From Runella rosea (GTDB lineage: Bacteria; Bacteroidota; Bacteroidia; Cytophagales; Spirosomataceae), in the NCBI RefSeq assembly GCF_003325355.1, contig NZ_CP030850.1, forward strand, positions 3,844,001 to 3,908,000: a stretch of 64,000 nt of DNA, written 5' to 3'. Shown here piece by piece: positions 21,761 through 34,338 of the stretch. Every line of letters starts with the position of its first letter. The first letter of the stretch is position 1. The position numbers were made by a program, and so were the translations under genes. The notes under the pieces were generated by a model. It had not been told where the DNA came from, ran no database searches, and saw nothing but the letters and a program-made list of their open reading frames with translations.

Positions 21761-21866
21761 GTACAGGCTTTTTGCTAACATTCTAAAGTAACGTTCAAAG
21801 CGTTACAATCATTTTAACAACGACGGTTTTTACGTTTTTTTTTCGACCGCTCCCTTCAAAATTAGC

Positions 21867-21929: not shown

Positions 21930-22109
21930 TTACTTCACAATCATAAACTTGCGGGTTATGGTTCGTTTATCTGCCTCAAAACGCAGTAGATACGCCCCAT
22001 TGGGCTGATGCGACAGGTCCGTTTGGTCCCGCTGCCAACCCCCTTCGCCCACCAGCGTCTTCTGCATAATGACACCGCCGGTGAGATGCATGAATTGCAG
22101 CCTCGCTTC
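21930..22109 (-). pseudogene. Remnant of a T9SS C-terminal sorting domain
   Basis: About 59 codons ending in TAA read EARLQFMHLTGGVIMQ ... NGAYLLRFEADKRTITRKFMIVK. This matches the type A sorting domain that ends T9SS cargo (hydrophobic strand, Gly-x-Tyr, then a basic Lys-rich end). It opens right after an in-frame stop, has no start, and no intact gene precedes it. It lies at the 3' end of the lipoprotein/propeptide array and just before a terminator. The simplest reading is that it is the tail of a secreted metalloprotease whose catalytic part was deleted. That link is inference; the sorting-domain match itself is strong. Confidence 0.75.
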
Positions 22110-22221
22110 TTACCCTTTTTCCAAATAACACCCAAGTATTACCCTTTCGTTAATACATTAAAAAGCGGTGGCACTCTTTCAAAATAAATTCTCTATAAAA
22201 TAATTAGACTACATAGATTGC

Positions 22222-22339
22222 TTATATCTTTTTTAATGCTGCGCTGTCTTCATGTAAGTATTTGGGTTGGTATTTTTAAGCGAATAGTCGCCCCCCCATA
22301 GACTAAAAATAAAACGTAAAATATTACTGTATTTTTCAT
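22222..22339 (-). pseudogene. Third, decayed copy of the protease-propeptide gene
   Basis: From the ATG at 22339 the DNA tracks the start of the two intact copies, including the ATAGACTA-flanked poly-G tract, but the tract here is 7 G (22291-22297). The frame shifts there. In the family frame a TAA also replaces the codon after Leu-Phe-Ala, then KYQPKYLHEDSAALKKI resumes similarity with RPKYLREDDKSFKEM of the copy at 24028. Similarity ends near 22222. It follows the lipoprotein gene at 22352, in the same order as the other pairs. Confidence 0.72.
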
Positions 22340-22351
22340 AGTGGCAGTTGG

Positions 22352-22720
22352 TTAATCAATTTTTTCAATTTTATCAATTACAATATGAGGAAAAGGATCT
22401 GCGGTAAGTGTAGGGCATCCACCACAGTCAAATATTCTTCCCCAAATGCGGTATTTAAAAGGCTGGGGCTTTCCTCGTACATAGGTATTCTCATAAGTGG
22501 CAAACTTTTCAACTTGAAAGGGGCAAATAAGAGGCCCATCTCCTCCTTCTATGATAAACCCGGCATTTTGGTATAAATCAGCGCGGGCATTTTTCACGGT
22601 TTTCATGTACTTATAGCGTTGATCTTCGGGTCCACAGGAAGTGGGGTCTTTTTTTCCACAGCTCACGCTCATCAGCAGCACAGCGGCGGCGTAGAGCAGG
22701 GGTTTTACGAATCGTTTCAT
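22352..22720 (-). CDS. Small lipoprotein C of the tandem array
   Basis: This 122-residue protein has a lipoprotein signal (MKRFVKPLLYAAAVLLMSVSC) nearly identical to those of the genes at 23393 and 24623. The ATG at 22720 gives the start shared with lipoprotein B; another ATG lies two codons earlier. The mature part aligns with lipoprotein A: RYKYMKTVKNARADLYQNAGF with RFKFIQQVENAPADFSRNGGF, PFKYRIWGRI with PYKYRVWGKI, and HIVIDKIEKID at the end. No named family is recognised. Because each paralogue sits just upstream of a gene for a metalloprotease propeptide, a protease inhibitor or immunity-like role is plausible, as in potempin/protease pairs of Tannerella; this is inference. Confidence 0.75.
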   Translation of the reverse strand: MKRFVKPLLYAAAVLLMSVSCGKKDPTSCGPEDQRYKYMKTVKNARADLYQNAGFIIEGGDGPLICPFQVEKFATYENTYVRGKPQPFKYRIWGRIFDCGGCPTLTADPFPHIVIDKIEKID

Positions 22721-22726
22721 GTTCAT

Positions 22727-22938
22727 ACGTTTTTTAAAGGGTTAAACTTTTCTTTTTGAGGGTGCTTCATAGGCAAAAGGGGGGGGTGAGGTGGATAAAT
22801 GGGTAAAAGGGATATGGATAGCTTTTATAGTTTGTTTAGGGGAGGTTAGCGGAACCTGTTTTTATAGTATTTTTAATATATAACTATTTGAATATTAGGA
22901 TTTTATACTATAAATAAAGGTTGGCGGTGAGAACACCA
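22727..22938. repeat. Array spacer, copy 1
   Basis: This spacer is an approximate direct repeat of the one at 23846-24047. Shared blocks in the same order include TTCATAGGCAAAA, GGTGGATAAATGG, AAAAGGGATATGGATAGC and CTATTTGAATAT. An 8-G run lies at about 22779-22786. It lies upstream of lipoprotein C and downstream of the FTP gene at 22939, marking the duplication unit. Confidence 0.75.
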
Positions 22939-22950
22939 TCAAGGGCGAAT
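22923..22950. repeat. 28-bp array repeat, copy 1
   Basis: Starts GGCGGTGAGAACACCATC on the plus strand. It differs from copy 2 (24048-24075) at one position and covers the 3' end of the propeptide gene at 22939. Confidence 0.8.
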
Positions 22951-23370
22951 AGGCTTTGCTATATCTATTTCCAATCCATCTATGATTCTACCGTGCGCAA
23001 TGTTCAAAACATTGTTCTGAGAATGTAAGCTAAACTCTGCGCCCTCAACGGGTATATTTTTATAGTGTAATTGAAACCGTTGGTGCTTGATTTGTTTATT
23101 GTCGGTTTCCTCTTTGAGAGCCTTAAAATCGTAGTGCTGCCCAAGGCCAAGACTACCGGCATAATCCTTGAAGAAAGTATTTGGATTGAGTTTGGCCTCT
23201 TTTTTGAACGCTATCCAGCCATTTTCGGTAGCTCGCGTAGTGAGATTTTTAAACGCTTGGTTGTCTTCACGCAGGTATTTGGGAGTATATTGAGAATTGC
23301 CCTGTTGTGCAAATAGCCCCCCCCCCCAATAGACTAAACAGATTGTAGTTAAGATTAGTAGCTTTTTCAT
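22939..23370 (-). CDS. Truncated M4-type protease: FTP propeptide only (copy 2)
   Basis: This 143-residue secreted protein has a signal peptide (MKKLLILTTICLVYWGGGLFAQ) and then only the FTP inhibitory propeptide of thermolysin/fungalysin-type metalloproteases: FFKDYAGSLGLGQHYDFKAL, HQRFQLHYKNIPVEGAEFSLH and IAHGRIIDGLEIDIAKPI. It stops inside the 28-bp repeat, before any catalytic domain; HExxH is absent. The signal peptide is encoded across an 11-G run (23317-23327) that would shift frame if its length changed. FTP domains fold and inhibit their own protease, so the product could act as an inhibitor in trans, or be a relic. It lies 22 bp after lipoprotein B. Confidence 0.78.
   Translation of the reverse strand: MKKLLILTTICLVYWGGGLFAQQGNSQYTPKYLREDNQAFKNLTTRATENGWIAFKKEAKLNPNTFFKDYAGSLGLGQHYDFKALKEETDNKQIKHQRFQLHYKNIPVEGAEFSLHSQNNVLNIAHGRIIDGLEIDIAKPIRP
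23317..23327 (-). repeat. Poly-G tract of 11 in a signal-peptide coding region
   Basis: Eleven consecutive C on the plus strand (G in the mRNA) encode the Trp-Gly-Gly-Gly of the signal peptide. Paralogues have 9 and 7 at the same place. Confidence 0.9.
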
Positions 23371-23392
23371 GGTAAAGATTCTTTAAAAAAGT

Positions 23393-23845
23393 TTAACGGA
23401 CTAATTCTGCTTTTTCGATGCTTAATTCATACAAATAGCTTGTATTTAACGAATAAGTAGTTTGACCTTTATTCAGATACACTTTTCCTGACACACGAAT
23501 CTGGGCTTTGGTAATAGGAGTAGCTGATAAGCCTTTCAATTTTTCAAGGCCCAATTCACACAAAAAGCCTCCCAAAGTTTTCCCATTAATCTTTATACCG
23601 GAACCCCACAAATAGGGAAAAATACTATCAGAGATGGCCGAAATCGATATTAATTCGTCTTTGAGTTCGGTTATAAATTCATATCTAATCCCAGGTGTAG
23701 TCCTACAGCAGTTGCCATTGGAACTTTCGCAGTCAAGTTCCGGGCGGAGCGCAAAACGGTCAATCGGGGTCTGTTCCTTCTTACAGCTCACGCTCATCAG
23801 CAGCGCAGCGGCGGCGTAGAGCAGGGGTTTTAACAATCGTTTCAT
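23393..23845 (-). CDS. Small lipoprotein B of the tandem array
   Basis: This 150-residue protein starts MKRLLKPLLYAAAALLMSVSC, a lipoprotein signal shared with its paralogues. Its mature part is more divergent than A and C, but keeps the LDC...CC motif found in lipoprotein A, RYEFITELKDEL near the start, AQIRVSGKVY in place of YKYRVWGKIY, and an ending YELSIEKAELVR like YMINVEKVEEVK. It was probably diversified after duplication. It lies 22 bp upstream of a propeptide gene and is preceded by a duplicated spacer. Function is unknown; an inhibitor of a secreted protease is the working idea from context. Confidence 0.73.
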   Translation of the reverse strand: MKRLLKPLLYAAAALLMSVSCKKEQTPIDRFALRPELDCESSNGNCCRTTPGIRYEFITELKDELISISAISDSIFPYLWGSGIKINGKTLGGFLCELGLEKLKGLSATPITKAQIRVSGKVYLNKGQTTYSLNTSYLYELSIEKAELVR

Positions 23846-24047
23846 GTTTCTGTTGTTTTAAGGGTTAAATATTTCATTTTGAGGATGCTTCATAGGCAAA
23901 ATGAGGGGTTTTAAGGTGGATAAATGGATAAAAGGGATATGGATAGCTTTTATGGTCTTTCTTTAGGAGGTTATCAAAACCTGTTTCATAATCTTTTTTA
24001 TACTATATCTATTTGAATATCAAAGCTTTATGCCGTAAGTAAGGCCT
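23846..24047. repeat. Array spacer, copy 2
   Basis: Direct repeat of 22727-22922, with the same ordered blocks upstream of lipoprotein B. No gene lies in it. Confidence 0.75.
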
Positions 24048-24597
24048 GGCGGTGAGAACACCACCAAGGGCGAATTAATTTTGCAAATAGCAGTGTTCCG
24101 TCGGGCAATTTAGTTTCTCCTTCTTTAAAATCGTCGAAAGATAGTTTCTTATCGGCTAATGCGATTTCAAGGGCACGTCGTTCTGTTATGGGCTTAGATA
24201 CATCGGTATCAATCCCCTCTACGATTCGCCCGTGGGCGGTTTGAAGCGTGCCATCCTCAAAAGTATGCAGTGAAAACTCCATCCCTTCGACGGGGATATT
24301 TTTATAATGAAGCTGAAAACGTTGGTGAAGTCGCTCTTTTTCATCCCTTTGTTCATTAAGGGCCTTAAAATCGTAGTGTTGGCTGAGGCCGAGGCTATTG
24401 GCGTAGTCTTTGAAGAAAGATTGGGGATTGATTTTAGCCTCCTTTTTGAACTCTATCCATCCATTTTCGGAGACCCGCGTAGTCATCTCCTTAAATGATT
24501 TGTCATCTTCACGCAGATACTTGGGCCGGTCTTTTTGCGCTATTAGTCGCCCCCCCCCATAGACTAAACATATCAAAAATATTAAAATCTTTTTCAT
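24028..24597 (-). CDS. Truncated M4-type protease: FTP propeptide only (copy 1)
   Basis: This 189-residue product has a signal peptide (MKKILIFLICLVYGGGRLIAQ) and the longest propeptide of the array: FFKDYANSLGLSQHYDFKAL, HQRFQLHYKNIPVEGMEFSLH, TAHGRIVEGIDTD, then ITERRALEIALADKKLSFDDF and LPDGTLLFAKL, typical of FTP plus the start of the following PepSY-like part in M4 proteases. It then runs into the 28-bp repeat, giving an unrelated tail (IRPWWCSHRQALLTA), so truncation was through fusion to that repeat. The break point is later than in the copy at 22939. Nine G (24550-24558) lie in the signal-peptide codons. It is 25 bp downstream of lipoprotein A. Confidence 0.8.
   Translation of the reverse strand: MKKILIFLICLVYGGGRLIAQKDRPKYLREDDKSFKEMTTRVSENGWIEFKKEAKINPQSFFKDYANSLGLSQHYDFKALNEQRDEKERLHQRFQLHYKNIPVEGMEFSLHTFEDGTLQTAHGRIVEGIDTDVSKPITERRALEIALADKKLSFDDFKEGETKLPDGTLLFAKLIRPWWCSHRQALLTA
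24048..24075. repeat. 28-bp array repeat, copy 2
   Basis: Starts GGCGGTGAGAACACCACC on the plus strand and lies inside the 3' end of the propeptide gene at 24028, encoding its foreign tail. Confidence 0.8.
24550..24558 (-). repeat. Poly-G tract of 9 in a signal-peptide coding region
   Basis: Nine consecutive G on the minus strand encode Gly-Gly-Gly in the signal peptide of the FTP gene. Confidence 0.9.
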
Positions 24598-24622
24598 TGT
24601 GGTATGTAGGTTTAACAGGTTC

Positions 24623-25057
24623 TTACTTTACTTCCTCTACTTTTTCAACATTGATCATGTAAACCGGTAAACCAGCAAATGACCGTGCATCTAAAGATTG
24701 ATATATTTTACCCCAAACTCTATATTTATACGGTGGTGGAGTATTTGTACCAAAAGTTGAGGTATGTTTTAATTTGCTTACATCAAATGCATTAACATCA
24801 CAAACAATAATATCGCGCATTGGAGTATTTGCCTCCGATGAAAAATTGAAACCGCCATTTCTTGAAAAATCAGCGGGAGCATTTTCTACCTGTTGAATGA
24901 ATTTGAATCTGCCGGCTTGCACAGAGCCGCAGCAAGTACCGTCGTCACAGTCTAAATTAGGTTCTTCTTTCTTACAACTCACGCTCATCAGCAGCACAGC
25001 GGCGGCGTAGAGAGTCCAAAGTCTCCTAGGGCTTGATTTTCTTGCTGGATTATTCAT
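24623..25057 (-). CDS. Small lipoprotein A of the tandem array
   Basis: This 144-residue protein is the first gene of the array in the direction of transcription. After an unusual Arg-rich N-terminus (MNNPARKSSPRRLW) comes the shared TLYAAAVLLMSVSC lipoprotein signal. The mature part has LDCDDGTCC (also in lipoprotein B), RFKFIQQVENAPADFSRNGGF, PPYKYRVWGKIY and a C-terminal YMINVEKVEEVK (close to lipoprotein C). No family is recognised. It is expected on the periplasmic or outer face of the outer membrane. The palindromic promoter at 25241-25287 probably drives it and the following FTP gene. Confidence 0.75.
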   Translation of the reverse strand: MNNPARKSSPRRLWTLYAAAVLLMSVSCKKEEPNLDCDDGTCCGSVQAGRFKFIQQVENAPADFSRNGGFNFSSEANTPMRDIIVCDVNAFDVSKLKHTSTFGTNTPPPYKYRVWGKIYQSLDARSFAGLPVYMINVEKVEEVK

Positions 25058-25210
25058 GTTTTTAATGGTTTAAGTGATAAAACGATTGATAGCGTGAAAA
25101 AAAACATTTTTAATGGCTCCATAAATGTGATGGTTTGAGGGTGAAAAAATAACTTTTGGTTCATCAAAAAACAGAGCGTTTCAAACGGGGAGTAAATTCA
25201 AAAAAGCGGT

Positions 25211-25238
25211 GGCGATGAGAACACCGCCAAAGGCAAAT
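25211..25238. repeat. 28-bp array repeat, copy 3 (in the leader)
   Basis: Starts GGCGATGAGAACACCGCC. It is about 80% identical to copies 1 and 2 and lies just downstream of the promoter, in the leader of lipoprotein A. Confidence 0.75.
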
Positions 25239-25240
25239 AA

Positions 25241-25287
25241 CAAATAACGGTGAGCCGAGCGAAAAGAACAATACCGGAATTCCGGTA
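25241..25287 (-). promoter_or_regulatory. Palindrome plus promoter of the lipoprotein/propeptide array
   Basis: On the minus strand the perfect 16-bp palindrome TACCGGAATTCCGGTA (25287-25272) is followed directly by TTG and, 20 nt later, GTTATTTG (25248-25241). The plus-strand site at 11065-11111 shares 19 of 20 bases across the palindrome and TTGT and has identical spacing. Confidence 0.5.
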
Positions 25288-25688
25288 ATTTTTATGGATG
25301 CTGGTAAAAAACCGCTTGCCAAACATACCTCACAGGCAAGCCAAAGTCAATAGCTACTGAGAAAAGTTCAAAACCCACATTAGGGAAAAATAACGGATAG
25401 GAATAAAGCCAGAAAGGGATACAAAAGCACCGCGAAATCACATTAAAGCCCGGTGAATCCTACCAAACTACGAGTGAACTCAACAGGTAATGAAGCAAAA
25501 AATATACCTGAGCGCCTTCTTAACGGAAATCGCTATACGTCAAAAGACTCATCAAAAATTCTTATTCTTTACCGTCTTACACCATGTCTTTTTTGTTTTC
25601 TAGCGCAAAAAACAATGATACTTTTTATCCGATTTTTCGTCAAAAAAACTACCCTGCTTTCACATTTTCCCTATTTGAATCAACGCCC

Positions 25689-28574: not shown

Positions 28575-31500
28575 TCAATCTACTTTCACTTTTCCTCCTC
28601 CCGAATAGCTTCTGAAATCTCCCGAATACATCGCATCGGCCGAAACGGGACCGAGTGTAAATGTGCCTTTGGTAATCACACGCACCATGTAATAAAACGT
28701 CTTCGGCGTGTTATCGGCTGTAGTATAATAATTGATGCGGTCGTCGCGAATATCGAAATGATTTGGGATGCTCGGTGCTTTAATCCACGGCATGTCGCGC
28801 GGCTCCGTCAGACGCGGATTTTCAATTTCAAAGGCGGCAGGAAGTAAATCCGTTACCACCACATTTTCCACGGGAGAGCCGTCGGTACTCGTCAGCGTAA
28901 TTTTCACCACCACTAAATCATTTTGACGGAAGGTACTCAATGGCTGGCCGTTACGACTCAAAAACTGCTTGCGTACCCGCAGACCAGCATCCTCTTCTAC
29001 ATACGCACCCGTAGCACTCAGACCTTCACTTTGCGCAAACCAGTAAAGAGACCCTTTACCTGAAGTGTTGATTTGCAATTTACGGTTGGCGATTTGTGAT
29101 TGTAATACCAAATCTTTCCCATCAAATGCCACCAACTGCTTACTGCCTACTGCCAACTTAGCCGTTACCGTCGAACCGGCATTTTTCTTAGCCAGTTTGC
29201 CTAATGCCAAAAACGAGAACGCAGCCTCTTGCGTATTTAAGTATGCGGTCGAATTGAGCGCCTGCGACAGGCGGCGCGCCAAGGTTGGAATTTGCAGGTT
29301 ACTCGCGTCAGTTTCAATCAATGTATTCAGCGTCAACGCTAAATTCCGAATGGGCGATGCAAAACTGCCGCTTAATTGGCGCGCTGAGCGGGTTTCGGCC
29401 AGAGCGGCTGGCAGTAAAGCAACGTAACTGCGCTCATCACCAATCTGCTTAAAAGCCGCCGCCAGCAGATAGCGCGTATCTGACGTCAGCAACTGCTGAT
29501 TTTGTTTGTAATAATTCATCGAGGCGCGGTTGGCTTTTCCGCCCAACGCCAAGGCATACAGCGAGTACAGCGACGAACGGCTCGCAATCGTCACCTGCGT
29601 ATAGCCACTTGCTTCGTCGTAGGTGTAGTCATACTCGGTAGCGGGTGAGCCTGTTTTTACGGTCAAATAATCCAACATGCGCCCCAAAGCCGATTGATTG
29701 ATTTCGAATCCTGCGCGTTGAGCTTCGATGAGAAAATGGGTGGCATAGGCCGTTCCCCAAGCAGACTCTTCGGTACTTGCGGGCCAGTAGCTCACCGCAC
29801 CGCTCGGCAACTGCATACTTTCTATTTTTTGAATCGCCGCCTGTACATTAAAGGTCGGATTATAGTCACTATCTCCGCTTTTAACCACGTAGGTCTTTGG
29901 CGCAATCGACTTGGCGATGTCGGCAAAATACAGTTGGGGGAATGCCTTGGAGATTGTCTGCTCAATACAACCGTGTGGATATCCCAACAGATAATCCAAG
30001 GCTTTGGCATATTGCACCATCGGCGAGCGACTCACCACCAATTTACTGCTGACCGTTGAAGGAATAAAGTCATTTCCACTTAAATCAACAGTTCCTGCAC
30101 TACCACCTGCTATCACACCTGACTGCGATGTTTTCAGCAATGAAGTGGCAGGCCGTATGGTTAATTCGGTCTTCTCTACAAACTTTTCTTTGCCGTTGTT
30201 GACCGTCACAGTCACACTGCCAGTACCCATCGCCTGTGCAGCTTTTACCACAAATGAAGTACGACTTTCTTTTTCGGGCGCAATGCTCAGCGTTTGACTT
30301 TTGGCTTGCAAATTCTGAAGTTGGCCGTTCACACTCAGGCTTACCTGCACGTTGGCGGCTGTTTTTTCGGTATTAGTTACGTTGACGGGCACAATCAGTT
30401 CATCATCTGGACTCAAAAAGCGCGGCAAAGCGGTACTGATCACGATGGGGTCTGCCACTTTCATGTTTTTGTTGCCCGAACCAAAACCATTGTCTTTATA
30501 AGCCACGGCCATGATGCGCAAATCACCCGAAAATTGGGGAATATCAACCTCAAATTCGGCTTCACCGTCCATGCCCGCGTCCAGTTGCCCAGACCAATAG
30601 GCCACTAAATTAACCCGTCCGTTGGAAAGCGGATTGATGCGTTTTTCTAAATCATAACCATCTCCCCCCACACTGCTGGTGGAAGCCAGTGAAAGTTCGG
30701 GGAACAAAAACGGGTACAAATCGTGGCTACTAACCTCCAAGGCCCGTTTTTGATAGAAAAATCCATGAATATCTGGCGTTTGAAAATTCTTGATTTGCAA
30801 AATTCCTTCATCCACTACGGCCACGGTTACTTGCGCATTGCGGGCCGTTTTGATGCGAATCTTTTGCTTGGTTTTGGAACGAGACTTTTCCACGGCAACA
30901 ATCTCCACGGGCAGTTTCGTATCCTCATCTTCGACCTTGACCGACGCAAACCCGTGCGCCACAGTCAGCGGCAGGTTAGAGTTGTCCAACGGTCGAATCA
31001 AAGTTGCGGAAATAAAAACATTCGGCAAATGATTGCTGCCCACGGAGAAACTGAATTCGGCAGATTTGTTATCGGTCGTTAAATAGGTGTGTTCCAGTAT
31101 TTTATTGCGCTCGACCGTCACCAATAATTTGCCCACAAACGGTGTTTTGAACAAAACCGTGGCTTTGTCGCCTACTTTATAGCTTGGTTTGTCAAATTCC
31201 ATGAGCACTTCTCCTTCATTGCTCACCTCAAACGACGAGGCCGAAGTACTTCCCCAACCATAAGCGTAAAAGTTGATCACCGAATACCCAGTGGTCGGTG
31301 TCCCCACCGACCCACTCGTGCGCCGTATCCGCACTTGATATTCCCCCGACACAGTTGGCACGTAACGAACTTCCGCCAAACCGTTTTTAAAATTCACGAC
31401 GTTGGAATACACTACTTTTTCGCGCTTTTTGGAAGAATAACGCAATTGATCGTTTTGTTTTTCCACTACCGTTTGGTAATCCATGCGTATTACTTCCACT

Positions 31501-34040
31501 TGGGCCTGAGACGTTGCTTTGGGCTTTCCGTCTTTATCGACCGCTACCAACCCAATAGGTACGGGCGCATTGAGTCCCACGTAGTTATCGGCCATTTTTA
31601 CCCCGTAAAAAACATCCTGCGTAAACACATCAAAGCGCTTGAGGCGATTGACGGGGCGGCCCGTTTCGTCAAAAACTGTGACGTAAATTTTTCCTTCCAA
31701 CACGCCCAAATCTTGGTACTCGGCGGGAAGTAAAAACGCTTCTTTTGCCAAACCATTGTCATCAGTCACGCCTTGCCGCAGCACATTTTCAAACTTAACG
31801 GCGTTGTCGGGCATATCGAAAATGTACTCTTTGTAGTTGGCGGCAAAAAAAGCTTTGCGTTTGAGCGAAAACTCCATTTCATAATTACGTCCCGACGCAG
31901 GAGGCCCAAACAGGTTGAGCGCCGTCGCGTTGAGGGTAATGGTTTGACTGGTTCGGTAAAATTCCTGATTGGTTTTGGCGTCTACCTTAATACGGTCGGG
32001 CATAAATTCCTCAATATTCAGCTTTTTAGAGGCCAGCAACACATCATTTGCGTTGTATACTTCCACGCTGTACCCACCCGTCACGGCGGCTTTGTCGAGC
32101 GCCAAAGACGTTTCTACCGCGCCTTCGCCGTTGGTGGATACGCGATAATTTTTGAGCTCTTTGCCGTTGGGTAACAGCACTTTGATCTTCAGCGGCACCT
32201 CCCCTACACTTTTCCAGTTTTGCTGACGCACCACCGTGTTGAAATGAATGGTTTCGCCAGGACGATAAATGTCCCGGTCACCGTAGATAAAAGCTTCAAA
32301 ACCCGAATTATTGTCGCGCTTACCTTCCACTTCAAAGCGAGACGTTTCGACCTGCGTATCTTCCAGAAGGAGATAATTAAAATCGGCATCGCGACTTTGG
32401 GCTTCACCGCTGTGGGCCACCACCATCGCAATGGAAAAATTAGGAGCTTTTTCCGACAATTTTTCAAACTTAACCACGCCTTTGCTGTCGGTCTTTCCTG
32501 TCAGTACGGTTTGGTTATTGGAAGAAATAAGGCTAATTTCTAGCTTATCCAGCGGCTCGGCGGTTTTGATAGAATTAGCAAACACCCACAATTCATCCTT
32601 TCCCTGTTTGGCAATCAACCCAATATCTGACAACGAAACCAATTTATTGGCGCGTTGGTATTGCTCATCTTTCGACTGCACGCTCACCAAATAAATACCG
32701 CGAAAGGCATTGGGGGCATCTGGCAAGCCCAGATTGAGCGCCGAAACGCCTTTTACTTTGGGGAGGTTATCGGTCTCAACGGTCTTATCCACCACAAGGT
32801 CGCTGTAAGATTGGTTGTCATCTTCCTGATAGTTATACGCGCCCGTAGGTCCCCAATTGTCGTCGCCACCCAAGTATCCGTACTCTTCGTAGCGGTTATT
32901 TCGCAGGTACTGTAAAATGTTATTTTCATAAATCTTGGCAATTTTTACCTGAACTTTAGGCACGTTCACAATTTGCACCCCCACGTTGCGCGCGCCTTTG
33001 GAAGAAAGATACACCGCTTTTTTATTGGCAAATGCAATGCTTGCGGGCATCATGCCAAAGAACAGGTCTTTACTAACCACTTCTTCTAAATTTGCCCCCA
33101 AAACGCCTTTCACTTGGTCGGTGAGGGTCAACACGTAGGTATCTGTTTCGTTAAAATCTCCCCGAATGATAAAACCGTTTTCGGTCAGCTCGGCCTTGGT
33201 TTGTACGGCGGGCTGAATTGTATAAAAGGTCGACAAATCCACATTTTGAAGTTCCTGCGTGGTCACGACCCGCACCATGCCACGGTTGTTCTCAAAACCC
33301 GTTTTTACCTCTTTTACTTCGAGGGTCGTGGCCGACGGAATCGTGCCTGAGAGCGTAATATCTTCTTTGCTGGTATATGCCGTGTTGGGCACTTTCAACC
33401 CTTTTTCGACCGATAGCTCTAGCGGTTGTTCGTTCTTATCAGCGACGGCATCGTTCAACGAAACCGTAACAGCCTCAGCTATTTGCGATTGCGTAATGGA
33501 AGAGCTAAGTGCTTTCTCCTCACTTTTTACCTTCAACTTTCCGCCCACGTCACCGCCATTGACGGCGTAGTTGAAATGCAACTTGGCTTTGGCCAATGCT
33601 TTGCCCGTTTCGCGCGATTTAGTCCAGTAGGTTTCGGCTTCGGTGAGTTGGAGATATGGCGTATGAAATTCGATTTCTTCGCCAGATACATCGTAGCGTT
33701 TTTCGATGGTTTTCTTCGCCAGCTCTTTGCTCAGCTCGGCGCGGTATTCGGTAGCAGGCTCAAAGCCACTCGCGGGCGAAAAAATCAGTTCGTTGGGTGC
33801 AGTCCACTTAAATTTTCCCGCCACGGCAGGGATGAACTCCACAAATTTGGTCGACTCCCAACTGTTCAGTTCTGATTCGGAAACAATGTCTTTGTTGAAG
33901 GTAAAGACCAGGTTTTGTGCCAGATTAATTTCATCCTCAAAATTTCGCCCCACCACCCGAATTTCATTGAGTTTTCCACATTGTGTAAAGAAGAGTGTGG
34001 AAAAGAGAAGCGTAAAAAGGGAAAAACGAACGAATTTCAT
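28575..34040 (-). CDS. Alpha-2-macroglobulin family lipoprotein with thioester
   Basis: This 1821-residue lipoprotein (MKFVRFSLFTLLFSTLFFTQC; ATG at 34040) is a bacterial A2M, a periplasmic protease trap. Segments in order: macroglobulin-like beta domains, the MG2 domain (GYSVEVYNAND; YIFGDRDIYRPGETIHF-like YGDRDIYRPGETIHF), the A2M domain (NLVAYWSGQLDAGMDGEAEF, DIPQFSGDLRIMAVA), and the thioester region YPHGCIEQTISKAFPQL with Cys1358 and Gln1361 intact, then TED helices and a C-terminal receptor-like domain (VVVTDLLPAAFEIENPRL). The thioester implies covalent trapping of attacking proteases. No penicillin-binding protein 1C gene, the usual partner, is adjacent. Longer frames back to 34142 lack a signal and are not used. 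Confidence 0.93.
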   Translation of the reverse strand: MKFVRFSLFTLLFSTLFFTQCGKLNEIRVVGRNFEDEINLAQNLVFTFNKDIVSESELNSWESTKFVEFIPAVAGKFKWTAPNELIFSPASGFEPATEYRAELSKELAKKTIEKRYDVSGEEIEFHTPYLQLTEAETYWTKSRETGKALAKAKLHFNYAVNGGDVGGKLKVKSEEKALSSSITQSQIAEAVTVSLNDAVADKNEQPLELSVEKGLKVPNTAYTSKEDITLSGTIPSATTLEVKEVKTGFENNRGMVRVVTTQELQNVDLSTFYTIQPAVQTKAELTENGFIIRGDFNETDTYVLTLTDQVKGVLGANLEEVVSKDLFFGMMPASIAFANKKAVYLSSKGARNVGVQIVNVPKVQVKIAKIYENNILQYLRNNRYEEYGYLGGDDNWGPTGAYNYQEDDNQSYSDLVVDKTVETDNLPKVKGVSALNLGLPDAPNAFRGIYLVSVQSKDEQYQRANKLVSLSDIGLIAKQGKDELWVFANSIKTAEPLDKLEISLISSNNQTVLTGKTDSKGVVKFEKLSEKAPNFSIAMVVAHSGEAQSRDADFNYLLLEDTQVETSRFEVEGKRDNNSGFEAFIYGDRDIYRPGETIHFNTVVRQQNWKSVGEVPLKIKVLLPNGKELKNYRVSTNGEGAVETSLALDKAAVTGGYSVEVYNANDVLLASKKLNIEEFMPDRIKVDAKTNQEFYRTSQTITLNATALNLFGPPASGRNYEMEFSLKRKAFFAANYKEYIFDMPDNAVKFENVLRQGVTDDNGLAKEAFLLPAEYQDLGVLEGKIYVTVFDETGRPVNRLKRFDVFTQDVFYGVKMADNYVGLNAPVPIGLVAVDKDGKPKATSQAQVEVIRMDYQTVVEKQNDQLRYSSKKREKVVYSNVVNFKNGLAEVRYVPTVSGEYQVRIRRTSGSVGTPTTGYSVINFYAYGWGSTSASSFEVSNEGEVLMEFDKPSYKVGDKATVLFKTPFVGKLLVTVERNKILEHTYLTTDNKSAEFSFSVGSNHLPNVFISATLIRPLDNSNLPLTVAHGFASVKVEDEDTKLPVEIVAVEKSRSKTKQKIRIKTARNAQVTVAVVDEGILQIKNFQTPDIHGFFYQKRALEVSSHDLYPFLFPELSLASTSSVGGDGYDLEKRINPLSNGRVNLVAYWSGQLDAGMDGEAEFEVDIPQFSGDLRIMAVAYKDNGFGSGNKNMKVADPIVISTALPRFLSPDDELIVPVNVTNTEKTAANVQVSLSVNGQLQNLQAKSQTLSIAPEKESRTSFVVKAAQAMGTGSVTVTVNNGKEKFVEKTELTIRPATSLLKTSQSGVIAGGSAGTVDLSGNDFIPSTVSSKLVVSRSPMVQYAKALDYLLGYPHGCIEQTISKAFPQLYFADIAKSIAPKTYVVKSGDSDYNPTFNVQAAIQKIESMQLPSGAVSYWPASTEESAWGTAYATHFLIEAQRAGFEINQSALGRMLDYLTVKTGSPATEYDYTYDEASGYTQVTIASRSSLYSLYALALGGKANRASMNYYKQNQQLLTSDTRYLLAAAFKQIGDERSYVALLPAALAETRSARQLSGSFASPIRNLALTLNTLIETDASNLQIPTLARRLSQALNSTAYLNTQEAAFSFLALGKLAKKNAGSTVTAKLAVGSKQLVAFDGKDLVLQSQIANRKLQINTSGKGSLYWFAQSEGLSATGAYVEEDAGLRVRKQFLSRNGQPLSTFRQNDLVVVKITLTSTDGSPVENVVVTDLLPAAFEIENPRLTEPRDMPWIKAPSIPNHFDIRDDRINYYTTADNTPKTFYYMVRVITKGTFTLGPVSADAMYSGDFRSYSGGGKVKVD

Positions 34041-34338
34041 TTTAGGACGATAAGTATCTTGGTCATTCTGAAAGAAAGTGTTTTCAGACCTTTTCAGGGT
34101 GACAAAGTAGGCTTGGAAGCGACTGCTAAACAAGGAGCGCATTAGGGTGAGAGGTTTAGAATTTAAGCGTATTAACGCTAAAAGTACGGGAAATTGTTAT
34201 CACAAAACAACAAAAGAATTTCCCATTTATTTGGCGGCCTGTACAGGAGATTTTAACGCCGCGTTGTGGGCAAGCCACCAGTATTTTTTTGACGTCAGGA
34301 TAGAAAAATTTGATAAATTTGCAGAAAAATCAAAAGAG
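34041..34338. other. Intergenic region between A2M and antitoxin genes
   Basis: No gene is supported in this stretch. A reading frame in phase with the antitoxin extends to 34147 but its product has no family resemblance before the ATG at 34339. The antitoxin promoter lies at the right end. Confidence 0.5.
34288..34321 (+). promoter_or_regulatory. Promoter of the toxin-antitoxin pair
   Basis: TTTG (34288-34291) and TAAATTTG (34314-34321) are separated by 22 nt, slightly longer than usual. The antitoxin ATG lies 17 nt downstream, preceded by AAAAGAG. Confidence 0.5.

Follow-up and report, generated by a model that had tools for sequence, protein, structure and literature searches.

A tandem array of potempin-like lipoprotein genes and truncated M4 protease heads in Runella rosea

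Why would a bacterium keep three small lipoprotein genes, each followed by the beginning of a secreted protease, when the protease itself is gone? The question is raised by a locus in a stretch of 64,000 nucleotides of the Runella rosea genome (assembly GCF_003325355.1, contig NZ_CP030850.1, positions 3,844,001 to 3,908,000), hereafter the window, where lipoprotein genes A, B and C alternate with truncated genes for an M4 (thermolysin-like) metalloprotease, heads 1, 2 and 3, ahead of a remnant of a C-terminal sorting domain of the type IX secretion system (T9SS). The answer that we favour, and consider the probable one, is that the lipoproteins are potempin-like proteins that have survived the loss of their cognate protease and today serve as orphan immunity, directed at metalloproteases of siblings, of rivals or of the cell itself.

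An array without a catalytic domain

The array lies on the minus strand, flanked by two divergently transcribed core genes that encode a 1667-aa protein (start at 21781) and a DUF2851 protein (start at about 25689). Following the direction of transcription, the order is palindrome, lipoprotein A, head 1, palindrome, lipoprotein B, head 2, palindrome, lipoprotein C, the decayed head 3 and the sorting-tail remnant (Table 1), and the spacing from lipoprotein to head is bicistron-like, at 12-25 bp. Units return every ~1.1-1.2 kb, a recurrence that excludes chance and shows a real tandem duplication. The G+C content is 40% in the array region, compared with 47.5% in the flanks.

The initial annotation, made from the letters of the window, had described three homologous lipoproteins alternating with three copies of an FTP propeptide, one of them decayed, with no catalytic domain in any copy and a T9SS sorting-domain remnant at the end. 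Open reading frames (ORFs), Pfam matches and repeats bear out this arrangement, and the sorting-domain match, which falls under the curated cut-off, is supported by a homologous scar in the sister genome G002. An M4 catalytic domain with its HExxH motif is absent from the array; moreover, the whole 7.16 Mb genome contains no Peptidase_M4_C match, and its only two FTP matches are heads 1 and 2. Read from this anatomy, head 3 and the sorting tail are the two ends of a gutted terminal protease.

Table 1. Coordinates of the array features, in positions of the window
Feature	Position	Strand	Description
Lipoprotein A	24623..25057	-	144 aa; signal peptide up to Cys28; mature N-terminus CKKEEP; AlphaFold model potempin-like
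Truncated M4 protease head 1	24028..24597	-	189 aa; signal peptide and FTP propeptide motif (24226-24372); PF07504 E 1.7e-7
Lipoprotein B	23393..23845	-	150 aa; most divergent mature domain; signal peptide near-identical to that of C
Truncated M4 protease head 2	22939..23370	-	143 aa; FTP motif (23008-23130); PF07504 E 1.5e-9
Lipoprotein C	22352..22726	-	124 aa; subtype also in congeners and at a second site in the same genome
Decayed protease head 3	22222..22339	-	Frameshift and stops; homologous decayed copy in sister genome G002
Remnant of T9SS C-terminal sorting domain (Por_Secre_tail)	21930..22091	-	PF18962 E 3.7e-4, under the curated cut-off; homologous scar in sister genome G002
Palindromic repeat upstream of unit 1	25200..25239	.	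Hairpin core 25211-25228
Palindromic repeat at truncated end of head 1	24037..24076	.	Core 24048-24065
Palindromic repeat at truncated end of head 2	22912..22951	.	Core 22923-22940
Conserved leader and signal-peptide block of lipoprotein B	23783..23908	-	Repeats D3 and D7; partner is 22658-22785 of C
Conserved leader and signal-peptide block of lipoprotein C	22658..22785	-	Repeats D3 and D7; partner is 23783-23908 of B

Relatives pair the lipoprotein with an intact M4 protease

A profile built from 18 lipoproteins and run against 222 genomes of the family Spirosomaceae found matches in 29 of them, spread over eight genera and often with two or three lipoproteins in succession. Beyond the family, the yield of a related profile from 395 sampled genomes of the phylum was a single fragment interrupted by stop codons. 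When head 1 was used to search relatives, it led to an intact protease in the metagenome-assembled genome G018, and Rudanella paleaurantiibacter (G014) has a nearly intact one with a single stop codon in its head; both are directly preceded by a homologous lipoprotein. At 15 fetched loci of the family, an M4 protease with the HExxH motif is immediately preceded by one or more lipoproteins encoded in the same orientation. Pfam matches at five such loci comprise M4 domains in all five, the sorting tail in four (one just under the cut-off) and FTP in three, with locus L051 stopping at a contig edge.

The same pairing is recovered when the search starts from the protease. All seven clade members found with the protease profile (Dyadobacter soli, D. 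fermentans, D. bucti, two further Dyadobacter, Rudanella and G018) have one to three upstream lipoproteins; at the more distant Bacteroidota loci checked from this profile there are none. Intact protease and lipoprotein thus occur together in relatives. The lipoprotein-linked M4 proteases form one clade (100/99), and the M4 proteases of the congeners fall into two separate clades; three of the ten M4 matches in the genus are not in this tree and resemble the others by score and length. None of the 13 genomes searched in the genus appears to have the cognate clade. Genome G009 has a lipoprotein and no M4_C match.

In two related genomes, loci that retain a full protease, L087 and L089, also contain lipoproteins alternating with short protease heads. 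They look like intermediates of array growth, and they support the earlier suggestion that the locus was amplified and then trimmed. The starting point would have been an operon of lipoprotein and T9SS-secreted M4 protease, the latter composed of FTP propeptide, catalytic domain and sorting tail. Tandem duplication of the lipoprotein together with the protease start would have enlarged it, leaving truncated heads as a by-product, and the terminal protease would later have lost its middle, as the anatomy of head 3 and the sorting tail suggests.

Two side observations concern other lipoprotein-protease loci. In congeners, a different lipoprotein with a weak DUF6252 match lies directly upstream of another M4 clade and makes up a second lipoprotein-M4 pair (L237:6076-6603 and L238:2805-3296). 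Outside the genus, loci L053:8012-9480 and L086:7067-7552 of two related genomes share a chromosomal neighbourhood between two glutamine-synthetase-like genes, where a lipoprotein stands with half a protease or alone; this may be a parallel protease loss.

A predicted potempin-like fold

Over whole proteins, lipoproteins B and C are 37-41% identical to A, and the mature parts of the three, which belong to different subtypes, are 24-33% identical. A signal peptide and a cysteine at position +1 are present in all three and in the lipoproteins of relatives that were read. Pfam scans of the array lipoproteins returned no family. The optimal motif for surface export is C-X-K-(D/E)2-X (PMC5080379), which the CKKEEP of lipoprotein A fits fully.

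Template-free AlphaFold models were built for lipoprotein A (predicted local distance difference test score, pLDDT, 74.9; predicted template modelling score, pTM, 0.70) and for a D. soli member that is ~24% identical to it (pLDDT 82.0, pTM 0.74). In structure comparisons the top match of both is potempin D (8ehb) of Tannerella forsythia, with Z 9.3, 2.8 Å and 91 residues aligned of 100 for lipoprotein A, and Z 9.4, 3.0 Å and 96 residues aligned of 100 for the D. soli model. Potempin A is next (Z 6.2-6.4 and 5.8-6.7, respectively), and potempins fill rows 1-4 in both comparisons, followed by single-stranded DNA-binding (SSB) proteins or other oligonucleotide/oligosaccharide-binding (OB) folds at Z 5.0 and 5.2. 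The potempin match gains weight because the top-ranking potempins are identical for two diverged members and because the gene order agrees with that in Tannerella. The prediction of a potempin OB-like fold is therefore a good one, and the potempin-like placement proposed in the initial annotation is supported, more strongly than a reading of the letters by itself would have led one to expect, by the predicted folds and by the position of the relatives' lipoproteins directly upstream of T9SS M4 proteases. Proteins of this kind would most likely reside on the cell surface or in the periplasm and act by occluding the active site of M4 or comparable metalloproteases.

Probable exchange of mature domains behind a common signal peptide

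Mosaic copies occur among the lipoproteins of the genome. The leader and signal-peptide blocks of B and C are 86-95% identical, compared with 41% nucleotide identity between their mature domains, and the proportion of differing synonymous sites (pS) is 0.000 in the signal peptide versus a near-saturated 0.76 in the mature part. A fourth lipoprotein of the genome (L044:7340-7729) combines an A-like signal peptide (synonymous divergence, dS, 0.18) with a C-like mature domain (dS 0.51, versus 1.96 to A). Six lipoprotein genes in the congener locus L045 are 83-100% identical across leader and signal-peptide blocks and differ in their mature domains. Signal peptides and mature domains have thus recombined separately, as the mosaic copies support, and the simplest reading is recombination at the signal-peptide boundary, by which mature domains may be swapped behind a common leader. 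Related lipoproteins occur in the genus at four further sites (L044; L045/L046/L048; L047; L049), and in the lipoprotein tree the copies of the genus fall into several groups, some of them beside protease-linked members of other genera.

Leaders and signal peptides of a similar kind are found, in the same congener arrays, on a second, unrelated lipoprotein family with weak Ig-like Pfam matches (L048:6647-9371, L045:6423-6869 and L046:4670-5116), whose neighbours are an Lrp/AsnC-like regulator on one side and a gene starting MKTNMTFF on the other.

Three unit boundaries carry a palindrome. The palindrome CTTGGYGGTGTTCTCACCGCC has 15 matches in the genome at up to 3 mismatches, compared with 0 for a reversed control; five of these sites flank lipoprotein cassettes and the rest lie near unrelated genes. 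The fourth lipoprotein has the same palindrome on either side and is followed by an IS200-like Y1 transposase gene (L044:7340-10311). The repeated unit boundaries had raised the idea of integron-type cassettes, which we reject: the boundary element is a near-perfect palindrome with ~15 scattered sites, and there is no integrase nearby. An Rfam scan of 21-26 kb gave no match.

Selection on the lipoproteins and the age of the protease loss

The lipoprotein subtypes are under purifying selection. The ratio of nonsynonymous to synonymous divergence (dN/dS) of the mature domain is 0.07-0.26 in nine of ten same-subtype comparisons within the genus and 0.35 in the tenth, far under the value near 1 that would mark genes adrift. 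These ratios being low, no positive selection is seen within any one subtype.

One alternative is a decaying locus: the loss of the protease would be recent, and the lipoproteins, without present function, would simply be decaying more slowly than the rest. Such decay would suit the broken head 3, the lack of an array at this site in most congeners, the scar without lipoproteins in the sister G002, and a tail remnant that was under constraint until recently. The distribution is indeed patchy: none of the other 11 congeners inspected has the array at the site between the two core genes, ten of them having a short spacer, and G002 has only head 3 and the sorting-tail scar there. On the other hand, all four lipoproteins of the R. 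rosea genome are undisrupted, and the low dN/dS values come from same-subtype copies at several sites and in several genomes that lack a cognate protease. A rough simulation of neutral evolution, its scale set by the scar that G002 also has, moreover puts at ~0.0002-0.0004 the probability of all three frames (A, B and C) remaining open; we give the simulation little weight, since the strong constraint on the sorting tail between the two genomes leaves the date of protease loss uncertain. Decay without function is, on this balance, an unlikely account of the array.

Several observations nevertheless weigh against orphan immunity. The sorting-tail remnant (21933-22091) differs from the G002 scar (L211) at a proportion of nonsynonymous sites (pN) of 0.04 and a pS of 0.56, core genes having a pS of 0.27, and such constraint means that the protease may have been lost recently. 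The purifying selection on the lipoproteins may in part be older than that loss, and their absence from G002, which keeps the scar, indicates that they are dispensable. With regard to the fold, a PDB sequence search with the lipoprotein profile found no chain up to E 10; Foldseek matches are weak (best E 0.088 for the lipoprotein A model and 0.022 for the D. soli model), SSB proteins stand level with or above the potempins by Foldseek E-value for the D. soli model, and OB folds are common. The full export motif is confined to A, with B (CKKEQT) and C (CGKKDP) matching it just in part. Finally, that the lipoproteins bind and inhibit a metalloprotease is something we infer.

The low pN of the tail is a puzzle in itself. 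G002 and R. rosea carry the same deletion scar and neither has the catalytic domain, yet the tail has hardly changed in protein sequence, which points to an unexplained timing or to recombination. Gene conversion within the genome, as a means of keeping the tails alike, is unsupported: a second copy is absent.

Possible targets and the status of the protease heads

If orphan immunity is the function of the array, then, with no cognate M4 in the genus, the lipoproteins would act on proteases of siblings or rivals or on other metalloproteases of the same cell. A rival account, in which the targets are at home among the cell's own further T9SS metalloproteases, for example M43 (pappalysin) enzymes, seems to us to have only a small chance of being right. 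The genome has five M43 matches, the best structural match of the lipoproteins is potempin D, and the related locus L102 joins a family-A lipoprotein, an FTP scar and a second lipoprotein to an M43 protease and a sorting-tail frame. In R. rosea, however, no family-A lipoprotein adjoins an M43 match, and elsewhere the lipoprotein-linked proteases are almost always M4. The arrangement in L102 (7388-11210), where the M43 gene is followed by a ricin-like and sorting-tail frame, possibly records a change of partner protease.

It is improbable that the lipoproteins, instead of being inhibitors, assist the protease in its export, its folding or its attachment to the surface. Their strict operon order with the protease would suit a partner of any kind, but they persist and diversify where the cognate protease is missing, and their predicted fold is closest to that of known inhibitors.

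The heads themselves are best explained as probable by-products of duplication. Heads 1 and 2 are 68% identical to each other, and head 1 is 60% identical to the intact M4 protease of G018. Both are terminated by the palindrome GGYGGTG-TTCT-CACCGCC; in head 1, the final ~15 codons of the 189-aa frame are palindrome sequence and beyond, and an apparently conserved coding motif, RPWWCSHRQ, proved to be merely the in-frame reading of the hairpin. Since the two heads stop at different protease residues yet at the same palindrome, the palindrome seems to have favoured the deletions that truncated them. Twelve protease-less heads were compared (three in the window; one each in L045, L046, L049, L050, L054, L089 and L102; two in L087), and only two, heads 1 and 2 of the window, keep the FTP motif, the others being shorter, stopped or fragmentary. 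It is because most copies elsewhere are broken that we regard the heads as by-products. The initial annotation had counted them among the inhibitors, a part of the proposal that finds no support: heads 1 and 2 do retain a signal peptide, the FTP motif and open frames, with a dN/dS of 0.11 between them, but ten of the 12 protease-less heads lack the motif or are broken, a low ratio at saturated dS mainly reflects their past as proteases, and both frames end inside the palindrome, so that selection of the heads as secreted inhibitors is highly improbable.

A different type of protease-trapping protein is encoded ~3.5 kb from the array, a bacterial alpha-2-macroglobulin lipoprotein with A2M, bait-region and thioester domains (28575-34142, minus strand).

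Implications of a possible inhibitor that outlived its enzyme

Beyond this one array, we tentatively raise the possibility that Spirosomaceae maintain a modular, recombining set of orphan potempin-like inhibitors, with a fixed leader and signal peptide, swappable mature domains, several genomic sites and no cognate protease, as immunity in an arms race of T9SS metalloproteases; on present evidence this wider idea is somewhat less likely to be true than false. If the array is explained correctly as potempin-like inhibitors, the scheme of a lipoprotein inhibitor ahead of a T9SS protease would extend to Spirosomaceae and to thermolysin-type enzymes, and an inhibitor could outlive its enzyme, multiply and be shuffled. 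Immunity genes that serve in competition between bacteria typically show this pattern, which would suggest that T9SS proteases can be weapons. The array and its relatives would also provide candidate metalloprotease inhibitors of natural origin, together with the enzymes that match them.

Comparison with known systems

To our knowledge, potempins are described from one oral pathogen. In Tannerella, every KLIKK protease has a small lipoprotein encoded ahead of it; these lipoproteins are without significant mutual sequence similarity (PMC4404884) and were later named potempins and characterized as inhibitors specific for the downstream protease (PMC7296668). PotA-PotE of T. forsythia (PDB 8b2m, 8b2n, 8b2q, 8ehb) have in common with the array lipoproteins their small size and lipoprotein nature, a gene position directly upstream of a T9SS protease, high divergence between members and an OB-like fold, which is predicted here with PotD and PotA closest. 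The array differs in the M4 partner of its relatives, in its tandem homologous copies and in the loss of the protease from the genus; the PDB sequence search showed no similarity to potempins, and inhibition by the array proteins is presumed. With M4 proteases, heads 1 and 2 share the PF07504 motif and 60-68% identity to a relative's intact enzyme; they differ in having no catalytic domain and in being truncated at a palindrome, and most comparable heads are decayed.

The rAID (recombinase-associated acquired interbacterial defence) systems are orphan immunity gene arrays of gut Bacteroidales (PMC12247911). Common to them and the R. rosea array are divergent immunity-like genes kept without a cognate effector and patchy across close relatives. 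The array differs in that its target would be a secreted protease and not a toxin of the type VI secretion system (T6SS), with protection and an immunity role that are putative here, and no ORF for a site-specific recombinase of the rAID kind was seen in 16.8-34 kb of the window. In Stenotrophomonas rhizophila, a PotempinA-like immunity protein is reported with a metalloprotease-like T6SS effector (PMC13340143). It shares with our proposal a potempin-type protein proposed as immunity to a metalloprotease weapon and differs in being a single pair with T6SS delivery, as opposed to a multi-copy orphan array derived from a T9SS operon. The rAID arrays and the Stenotrophomonas pair are thus precedents for the two halves of the idea of orphan potempin-like immunity.

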